From Alloalcanivorax xenomutans (lineage in GTDB: Bacteria > Pseudomonadota > Gammaproteobacteria > Pseudomonadales > Alcanivoracaceae): a DNA stretch of 64,000 nt. Every line of letters begins with the position of its first letter. Positions within the stretch are counted from its first letter, which is position 1. The translations under genes and the position numbers were made by a program. Shown here in pieces: positions 23,220-34,151 of this stretch. The stretch spans positions 1 through 64,000 of the forward strand of contig NZ_OBMO01000012.1 of assembly GCF_900217905.1 (NCBI RefSeq). Reading direction: 5' to 3'. The notes below the pieces were generated by a model. It was not told where the DNA came from, did not search any database, and saw only the letters and a list, made by a program, of their open reading frames with translations.

Positions 23220-23240
23220 GCTTCAACGACGACCCGCAGG

Positions 23241-23264
23241 ATGACCGCCATGGACGGCGGTCAT
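23241..23264. repeat. Single-copy relative of the 75-bp array hairpin
   Basis: ATGACCGCC (23241-23249) and GGCGGTCAT (23256-23264) form a perfect 9-bp stem around ATGGAC. Read on the plus strand it matches the minus-strand half-unit of the array at 32845-33219 (GGCCGCC-ATGGAC-GGCGGCC), with paired changes that keep the stem. Confidence 0.75.
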
Positions 23265-32433: not shown

Positions 32434-32510
32434 TGGGGTGACTGATGGGATTTGAACCCACGACCACCGGAGTCACAATCCGGGGCTCTACCAACTGAGC
32501 TACAGTCACC
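32434..32510 (-). tRNA. tRNA-His (anticodon GTG)
   Basis: The 77-nt gene has anticodon GTG in ATTGTGACT, the extra 5' G (G-1) opposite C73 that is required by histidyl-tRNA synthetase, and encoded CCA. It is the last gene of a three-tRNA operon. Confidence 0.97.
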
Positions 32511-32534
32511 ATAAATCGCTTGAGCCGCCAGCGA

Positions 32535-32611
<77 letters not shown>

Positions 32612-32638
32612 TTAACTACCTCTCAACCTTCGCTGAGT

Positions 32639-32715
32639 TGGTCGGGGTGGAGGGATTCGAACCCCCGACATCCTGCTCCCAAAGCAGGCGCGCTACCAGG
32701 CTGCGCTACACCCCG
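32639..32715 (-). tRNA. tRNA-Pro (anticodon TGG)
   Basis: The 77-nt gene has acceptor CGGGGTG/CACCCCG, anticodon TGG in CTTTGGGAG and encoded CCA. It is the first gene of the operon, directly after a strong promoter. The equivalent E. coli operon (argX-hisR-leuT-proM) also carries a tRNA-Leu, which is absent here. Confidence 0.97.
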
Positions 32716-32738
32716 CCGAGCAGGTCGAGCGAGGCGGC

Positions 32739-32767
32739 ATAATACTCGCCGCCCCCAGGAGCGTCAA
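32739..32767 (-). promoter_or_regulatory. Promoter of the tRNA operon
   Basis: On the minus strand TTGACG (32762-32767) and TATTAT (32739-32744) are 17 bp apart. The GC-rich discriminator GCCGCCTCGC follows, as expected for stringently controlled stable-RNA promoters. The predicted start lies about 17 bp before tRNA-Pro. Confidence 0.8.
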
Positions 32768-32844
32768 CGCCGCGAACCCGCTATCTGACCTGTTCGCTGG
32801 AATTATAAACAACCGGGGAAGAAAAGTGCGGTGACTCTGTTTTT

Positions 32845-33219
32845 GTGGCCGCCGTCCATGGCGGCCATCCTCCGGACCGTCACTGCCGCGACGTCAAAAA
32901 TCGCTCCCGGCGATTTTTTGTGGCCGCCGTCCATGGCGGCCATCCTCCGGACCGTCACTGCCGCGACGTCAAAAATCGCTCCCGGCGATTTTTTGTGGCC
33001 GCCGTCCATGGCGGCCATCCTCCGGACCGTCACTGCCGCGACGTCAAAAATCGCTCCCGGCGATTTTTTGTGGCCGCCGTCCATGGCGGCCATCCTCCGG
33101 ACCGTCACTGCCGCGACGTCAAAAATCGCTCCCGGCGATTTTTTGTGGCCGCCGTCCATGGCGGCCATCCTTCGGACCATCACTGCCGCGACGTCAAAAA
33201 TCGCTCCCGGCGATTTTTT
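32845..33219. repeat. Five tandem 75-bp double-hairpin repeats
   Basis: Units begin at 32845, 32920, 32995, 33070 and 33145. The first four are identical and the fifth has two substitutions. Each unit contains GGCCGCC-GTCCAT-GGCGGCC (7-bp stem) and AAAAATCGC-TCCCG-GCGATTTTT (9-bp stem). Because 75 is a multiple of three and the unit lacks stops in several frames, long repetitive open frames appear on both strands, but no ribosome site or unique sequence supports a protein. The array fills most of the 587-bp gap between the tRNA operon and folD. Function is unknown; transcription blocking or a nucleoid or helicase target are possibilities. Confidence 0.95.
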
Positions 33220-33302
33220 GCTCCAACCCGCCGACCGTGCGAGAATCGCCGCGCGATTCCCACCGCTTTCCTTTTATATGTTCCAAGGACCAAGAGAGAC
33301 CC

Positions 33303-34151
33303 ATGAGCGCGCAGATTCTGGACGGCAAGGCCCTGGCTCAACGCTTCGAGCAAGAGATGTCACAACGGGTGGAAGCCCTGAAAGCCGCTTCCGGCGGCCG
33401 CACGCCGATTCTCGCCACCATTCTGGTGGGCACCGATCCGGCCTCCGCCACTTATGTAAAGATGAAGGGCAATGCCTGCCGCCGCGTCGGCATGGATTCC
33501 CAGGCCATCGAGTTGCCCCAGGACACCACCACCGAGCAGCTGCTGCAGCGTATCGAGGAGCTCAATGCCAATCCGGACGTGCATGGCATTCTGCTGCAGC
33601 ACCCGGTGCCGGAACAGATCGACGAGCGCTTGTGCTTTGACGCCATCGCCCTGGGCAAGGACGTGGACGGCGTTACCTGTCTCGGCTTTGGCCGCATGGC
33701 CATGGGCGAGCACGCTTATGGCTGCGCCACGCCCAAGGGCATCATGCGCTTGCTGGAGCACTACCAGGTGCCGCTGGAGGGCCAACATGCCGTGGTCGTG
33801 GGCCGCAGCGCCATTCTTGGCAAACCGATGGCAATGATGCTGCTGGGCGCCAACACCACCGTCACCATTTGCCACAGCCGGACCCGCAATCTGCCGGAGC
33901 TGGTGAAACAGGCCGACATCGTGGTCGGCGCGGTGGGCAAGCCGGAATTCATCAAGGCCGATTGGATCAAGGACGGCGCCGTGGTGGTCGACGCAGGTTA
34001 CCATCCGCAGAAGTGCGGCGATATCGAGCTGGCACCGCTGGTGGAGCGCGTCGCCGCTTATACGCCGGTGCCCGGTGGCGTCGGCCCGATGACCATCAAC
34101 ACCCTGATCTTCCAGACCCTGGAAGCCGCGGAAAAAGCACTCAAAGGGTAA
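33303..34151 (+). CDS. folD: Methylenetetrahydrofolate dehydrogenase/cyclohydrolase FolD
   Basis: FolD interconverts methylene-, methenyl- and formyl-tetrahydrofolate with NADP. The 282-aa protein has the active-site YVKMKGNA (Lys), LLQHPVP, the Rossmann segment [17 protein letters not shown] and the closing [15 protein letters not shown]. The segment [16 protein letters not shown] departs from the common VDVGIN form, so it belongs to a FolD subgroup. A longer frame from 33237 runs out of the repeat array. AAGAGAG before 33303 and the family N-terminus [13 protein letters not shown] fix the start. Confidence 0.95.

Follow-up and report, generated by a model that had tools for sequence, protein, structure and literature searches.

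A tandem array lies between a tRNA operon and folD

In the window, the 64-kb stretch of Alloalcanivorax xenomutans DNA analyzed here, a tandem array separates three tRNA genes from folD (Table 1). TRF placed it at 32840-33220 with a period of 75, 5.1 copies, 99% matches, and a score of 748; the second-best tandem score in the window was 55. The original prediction of five 75-bp repeats, four of them identical and the fifth with two base changes, is borne out, as unit 5 departs from units 1 to 4 by a C to T change at unit position 28 and a G to A change at position 35. The copy number rests on a draft assembly of 47 contigs. Three open frames of 126, 153, and 269 aa cross the array. They look like a by-product of the period being a multiple of three, as had been proposed. 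The promoter expected beside the array is likewise predicted, on the minus strand.

Table 1. Features of the array and its surroundings (window positions).
Feature	Position	Strand	Basis
Tandem array, five 75-bp units of the putative mobile repeat	32845..33219	+	TRF; CM R1 matches
Unit 1, same sequence as units 2-4	32845..32919	+	
Unit 2	32920..32994	+	
Unit 3	32995..33069	+	
Unit 4	33070..33144	+	
Unit 5, probable founder; two bases in common with the single A. balearicus unit	33145..33219	+	
Hairpin H1, unit 1; loop GTCCAT (minus strand ATGGAC)	32846..32867	+	Alignment, pair counts
Hairpin H2, unit 1	32868..32876	+	Alignment, pair counts
Hairpin H3, unit 1; imperfect in unit 1	32878..32893	+	Alignment, pair counts
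Hairpin H4, unit 1; A-run/T-run stem	32896..32918	+	Alignment, pair counts
T-run left of the array, taken as target remains	32840..32844	+	
T-run at the right array end; with the next GC, the conserved TTTTGC 5' of folD	33214..33219	+	Alignment of relatives
Truncated family copy, model positions 1-44	23220..23263	-	CM match
tRNA-operon promoter, predicted, TTGACG-17-TATTAT	32767-32739	-	
tRNA-His, tRNA-Arg, tRNA-Pro (context)	32434..32715	-	
folD (context)	33303..34151	+	99% identity to Alcanivorax sp. 24 protein

The unit is dispersed in the genome and the genus

BLAST of one unit gave 58 matches in the genome of the window (G000), the weakest of no weight. A covariance model (CM R1) built on 41 aligned units matched 66 places in this genome at E ≤0.1, 61 of them below 0.001, E-values from the model being rough. 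The stretches fetched from this genome contain 44 arrays; these have one to five units each, and some are cut short on the left or on the right. The family-level search found matches in 17 of 46 genomes at E 0.001. At that threshold we counted 61 copies in G000, 39 in G006, which we take to be A. dieselolei B-5, 44 in A. balearicus MACL04 (G007), 80 in Alcanivorax sp. 24 (G008), and 1 to 12 in each of nine other same-genus genomes; G014 and G025 have three each, G023 nine, and G029 one. A search of related genomes, as the original prediction advised, thus places the unit in several of them and not in one assembly only. The truncated copy elsewhere in the window corresponds, at the orthologous place in G006, to a full unit and a partial unit.

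The gene contexts, taken from home-made gene calls, are mixed. A gene 3' end lies on the left of 21 of the 37 G000 arrays with both neighbors called; five further arrays fall inside a called frame and two of the 44 are without a neighbor. ARAGORN places a tRNA within 500 bp of one of the 44. In Alcanivorax sp. 24 many units are embedded in a larger mosaic repeat that contains a ~92 bp tandem repeat as well (L275, about 1000-2140), and 11 of 19 other loci compared in that genome have over 400 bp in common with this locus.

Four hairpins are kept by compensatory changes

The unit had been described as two hairpins. Both are present, and the aligned relatives reveal two more, CCC-loop-GGG and CGTCRC-loop-GYGACG, so that the count was short. 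The consensus runs T-run, R, TG at the start of H1, then CCC-GGG (H2), H3, and an A-run/T-run hairpin (H4). In the 41 aligned units 92.6% of cells are paired, and 14 pairs are double-changed against 6.9 in shuffles; sliding the partners out of register lowers pairing to 32-50%. Further pair types in these units do not rise above shuffles (29 vs. 28.5). By mutual information over 3003 column pairs, the top four fall in H4, H1, H4, and H2, and some unpaired columns also score high, partly from shifted rows.

Units from other genera have the same fold. An alignment of 72 matches from 58 sources, fitted to the model, is 95.4% paired with 25 of 26 pairs double-changed (441 cells vs. 134). When 51 units were aligned independently by MAFFT, without fitting to the model, H1, H2, and H4 came out again, with 13 of 16 pairs double-changed, and H3 did not. 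The retention of four hairpins through compensatory changes shows that selection acts on a folded single strand, of DNA or of RNA. Cells that are not Watson-Crick are more often A.C than G.T on the plus strand (124 vs. 58 raw, 46 vs. 33 weighted). As A.C on the plus strand is G.U on the minus strand, this excess would suit minus-strand folding, the bias being modest.

The foot of the unit is T-run, R, TG, and its T and G are paired in H1 in 32 and 37 of the 41 units, respectively. Among units chosen for a T at the foot, the figures are 114 and 112 of 118. An additional stem, P0, pairing TTTTTR with YAAAAA to close a four-way junction, is not claimed. A single pair of it covaries, R7-Y59, which is Watson-Crick in 104 of 118 units and comes 13th among the 3003 column pairs in mutual information; the remaining five P0 pairs are 107th or lower. 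R7-Y59 may equally be H4 extended by one pair (tandem or circular form). No Rfam family reaches its gathering threshold over the unit, and in the window Rfam gives tRNAs alone. Identity with a known sRNA was accordingly set aside.

Insertions are found at T-runs

Filled and empty alleles were compared between G000 and G006. A flank query gave 41 matches in G006, and 25 of the 44 sites were taken, those without a full unit in G006. Six of the 25 (sites 1, 8, 11, 12, 30, and 34) are clean pairs in which the G006 flanks are continuous and the extra sequence in G000 is one unit, or two at site 12. Five of these empty alleles have at least five T's; site 12 has just TTT. Sites 25, 33, 35, and 38 fit insertion with small extra differences, sites 3 and 28 gave no usable pair, and at the remaining compared sites, that of the window included, G006 has remnants or other sequence. 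In the reverse comparison, 10 of 20 G006/G007 copies matched a stretch among eight G000 regions. One clean insertion, at a T6 run, is the G007 copy L302 (against L314 in G000). Two others (L293 and L308) fit insertion with diverged flanks, the empty allele of L308 being TT only, and the rest were not clean or had a single flank only. No target duplication besides the T-run overlap was found at the filled/empty sites. As judged from these alignments, what is inserted is one unit or a dimer, and in nearly all clean cases the site is a T-run and T's flank the insert left and right.

A T-run of at least four precedes 34 of the 40 arrays with an intact 5' end; no T-run precedes the other six. A strong hairpin stands before the T-run in 15 of the 40, against 19% of 430 T-runs (≥5 T) in the same loci, hairpin strength being our own score and background T-runs inside units being retained. 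By this measure insertion is behind a terminator-like hairpin in a good part of cases. At site 11 the empty allele (L271, G006 about 4758121) is ~150 bp from the coordinate that names sRNA4758272 of A. dieselolei B-5 in the available text of the report on that strain (PMC9788540), if G006 is indeed A. dieselolei B-5. At this site the G000 insertion may sit in the terminator of that sRNA.

The array at folD probably grew after insertion

Counting copies across relatives at the folD gap, another step named in the original prediction, gave five in the window, one in A. balearicus (L056), two diverged units ~350 bp apart in Alcanivorax sp. 24 (L055), and otherwise none. No unit is present in the gap in G006 or in the other 16 of the 18 relatives compared, two of which (L071 and L072) reach only 243 and 440 bases upstream of folD. 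Unit 5 matches the A. balearicus unit at both diagnostic bases and units 1 to 4 do not. The simplest history suggested by these differences would be one insertion followed by duplication of a mutated copy. Identity within arrays averages 0.947 over 21 pairs (10 from the window), against 0.778 over 1410 pairs between arrays, in keeping with the expectation of a young or homogenized array. The 11 within-array pairs outside the window, averaged by hand, have a mean of 0.908.

The three filled species keep TTTTTTGC, then GTGCGAGAATC, ahead of folD. The 14 unfilled relatives that reach that far, and G006, have TTTTGC or TTTGC followed by the same motif at similar spacing. By this conservation, the region looks like a folD promoter, and the insertion would sit at the T-run of that putative promoter and rebuild it.

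A RAYT-like gene adjoins one array

A Y1_Tnp gene encoding 231 aa adjoins one G000 array (L052:1135-1830). Its product scores 38.7 bits against the NCBI RAYT model, for which the cut-off is 80, and by alignment is without the catalytic Tyr and the first His. Among the 46 family genomes, orthologues of at least 95% identity are encoded only in G000, G006, G007, and G008, and in all four the gene starts 113-114 bp away from a unit. No unit was found at 30 other Y1_Tnp loci fetched, a set without orthologues of this gene, nor outside the genus beside a RAYT-like gene among the matches listed. Class-wide, RAYT-like genes and the repeat co-occur weakly (60/114 vs. 101/254, odds 1.7, p 0.023). The gene is the only candidate partner for the unit, and a weak one.

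Up to five members of a RAYT-like group (L052, L053, and L214-L233) are encoded per Alloalcanivorax genome. In most of these proteins the first His of the HuH motif is replaced, and many have a C-terminal GRGRP, which we take to be an AT-hook-like motif. The group alignment matches 162 of 369 Gammaproteobacteria. Beside a Y1_Tnp remnant in G000 there is also a gene that by eye is TnpB-like (L054, 1670-2767).

Range across bacteria

At E 1e-5 the model matches 115 of 369 sampled Gammaproteobacteria, representing 98 of 272 genera, with copy counts that are lower bounds, 12 candidates having been scored per genome. Tandem arrays recur with a period of 72 in G202 and of 77-78 in G366. Of 398 genomes sampled from the phylum 64 match; 35 of these belong to the class, and of the 29 that do not, 25 are from one family. 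The unit of E. coli O157:H7 is matched in 604 of 5426 E. coli genomes. By eye, copies in E. coli, Klebsiella, and Salmonella lie inside a larger palindromic repeat, as does the O157:H7 copy between rpnC and panC (L332, 1467-1542). A link with Rpn nucleases was discarded: rpnC stands beside two E. coli copies of a single locus, and the gene tables around seven other enteric copies, incomplete for plasmids, list no rpn gene.

ARAGORN finds a tRNA within 200 bp in 13 of 51 class-level loci, tRNA-Ser in eight of the 13, these being raw counts. In another raw count, GATT and CGAA-like sequence border the unit in eight of the 51, as though it had gone into a T-loop. Units in other genera also lie in apparent duplicated tRNA 3' ends beside tRNA-Ser (L357, L375, L350, and L331). 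As for mobile replicons, the window unit has no match in the phage collection, the G202 and L366 units none in the plasmid collection, and a pattern search of viral contigs gave none. The E. coli unit matches 11 plasmid records and eight phage-collection records.

A small mobile repeat and the alternatives

Taken together, the sequence comparisons favor reading the array as one insertion, with later tandem amplification, of a small non-autonomous mobile repeat; we put the probability of this reading at about 0.6. The unit would move as a folded single strand of DNA, its left end marked by the nearby H1 and its right end by H4. Its target would be a T-run or, in some other genera, the apparent T-loop of a tRNA 3' end. 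A single-strand enzyme of the Y1/RAYT kind acting in trans is the most likely candidate for the mover, and the H1 and H4 loops, TCC on the plus strand, could be its recognition marks. Because the unit ends in a T-run, it would rebuild its own target, which favors tandem arrays. The rebuilt T-run could also leave T-rich signals of the host in place, as with TTTTGC at folD. The array can be explained without any function for the host.

Four other explanations were weighed against a mobile repeat of this kind. One makes the unit a REP/BIME-type repeat moved by its RAYT-like neighbor, a REPtron at the level of the genus. The close orthologues are confined to the four genomes with 39-80 copies and the spacing to the unit is nearly constant, both in its favor. 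Yet by alignment the protein is without the catalytic Tyr and the first His, and the adjacency is found at one locus only; since the four genomes have that orthologous locus in common, it counts as one event. The unit-free Y1 loci among the 30 fetched and RAYT-like loci among the matches listed, and the absence from the unit of an unpaired GTAG or CGTC tag, its TG foot being paired in H1, also speak against it, and we consider it unlikely. CsrA/RsmA prefers an ANGGAN hexaloop, and another explanation is that minus-strand transcripts act as CsrA/RsmA decoys with two GGA hairpin loops per unit. On that strand, 139 of the 147 distinct units of the Alloalcanivorax set have an H1 loop that fits ANGGAN, as do 44 of 58 other sources; GGA is present in the H1 loop of 54 of the 58 and in the H4 loop of 57. 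The lean toward A.C on the plus strand, also seen as 14 vs. 7, agrees with it, as does an RsmW match on the minus strand that is weak (E 0.032, below the Rfam gathering threshold). ANGGA is given as the CsrA motif in A. dieselolei B-5 work (PMC9788540). Against decoys, the arrays have no clear orientation to genes, the right-hand neighbor ending toward the array in 14 of 37, and the clean insertions point to a mobile element. The dRNA-seq paper on that strain, in its available text, puts its two CsrA-related sRNAs elsewhere (PMC9788540). Decoys as the explanation of the array are thus very unlikely to our minds; a CsrA/RsmA link through the minus-strand GGA loops is possible on the loop sequences.

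The original prediction favored a role in transcription control, with the array kept between the tRNA operon and folD as an insulator or a bidirectional terminator. Each unit does have an A-run/T-run hairpin, and the array stands 5' of the tRNA promoter and of the folD TTTTGC motif. The likeness to a terminator on both strands proved to be resemblance only, as a strict scan of 32600-33400 gave 0 terminator-like sites against 1.1 expected. On our own reading the reason is that the T-run pairs with the A-run in the H4 stem and is not left free. In other genera the right end of the unit is mostly ATTTGT or TTTTGT (40 of 58), a poor terminator tail. A local role is further weakened by the dispersal of the unit over all kinds of gene gaps, nearly always away from tRNAs, and by the lack of the array at the folD gap in G006 and 16 of 18 relatives, which makes an insulator improbable by a wide measure. 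That the assembly is at fault and the copy number wrong would fit identical units in a draft; unit 5 differs, however, and in several assemblies there are other arrays whose units have diverged or number two to five, so that an artefact seems remoter still.

More tentatively, and with rather more doubt than belief, we suggest a superfamily of minimal mobile elements that spans the class and includes the unit, its members being 75-85 nt long, without a gene, and distinct from the GTAG and CGTC REPs. Such an element would move single-stranded, folded into four hairpins of which the two at the ends have a TCC loop motif in common, and would target T-runs, terminator tails, and tRNA T-loops, rebuilding its own target together with the host signal. 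If this is right, about a third of sampled Gammaproteobacteria carry a structured mobile repeat without an Rfam match above threshold. Its insertions would be datable by sister genomes, and the filled/empty pairs would make the mechanism testable. Landing in terminators and in a promoter-like T-run would bear on the evolution of intergenic regions, and the GGA loops would suggest a concrete, checkable link to CsrA/RsmA control.

Comparison with known systems

The family was not found in the literature searched; many subscription journals lie outside that coverage, and a description may already have been published elsewhere. Class C group II introns, which integrate 3' of terminators, are like the unit in having a target behind terminator hairpins, and the unit is unlike them in being 75 bp long, intron features having been searched by Rfam alone. 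Bacterial MITEs such as ERIC/RU-1, YPAL/RU-2, RU-3, and Correia/NEMIS are, in the parts of the reports available, also small, non-autonomous, mobile, palindromic, and intergenic (PMC2229807, PMC2759123). By eye, the RU-2 and RU-3 sequences printed in one of these reports differ from the unit (PMC2759123). Unlike MITEs, the unit is without terminal inverted repeats on inspection of the consensus, no TA duplication was seen, and its enteric copies lie inside a larger palindromic repeat.

REP, BIME, and REPIN sequences with RAYTs are, as far as the available text of the sources goes, short, dispersed, intergenic, and hairpin-forming, present in dozens of copies with no gene of their own, and a Y1-type single-strand enzyme is thought to move them (PMC3733652, PMC8266576). 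All of these traits but the mover have their counterpart in the unit. Whereas REP/BIME have a single palindrome of 20-40 bp, the unit is 75-85 bp with four covarying hairpins in one direct unit, and it arrays head-to-tail, not mainly as inverted pairs. It also differs in its T-run target and in having neither an unpaired GTAG/CGTC tag nor a dedicated intact RAYT that we could find. IS200/IS605 elements and their small derivatives resemble it in their hairpins near both ends, apparently in oriented insertion 3' of a short target, and in the lack of a clear target duplication apart from the T's, to the extent that the available text describes them (PMC8266576). The unit differs from them in that no transposase was found for it and in that all four of its hairpins are conserved.
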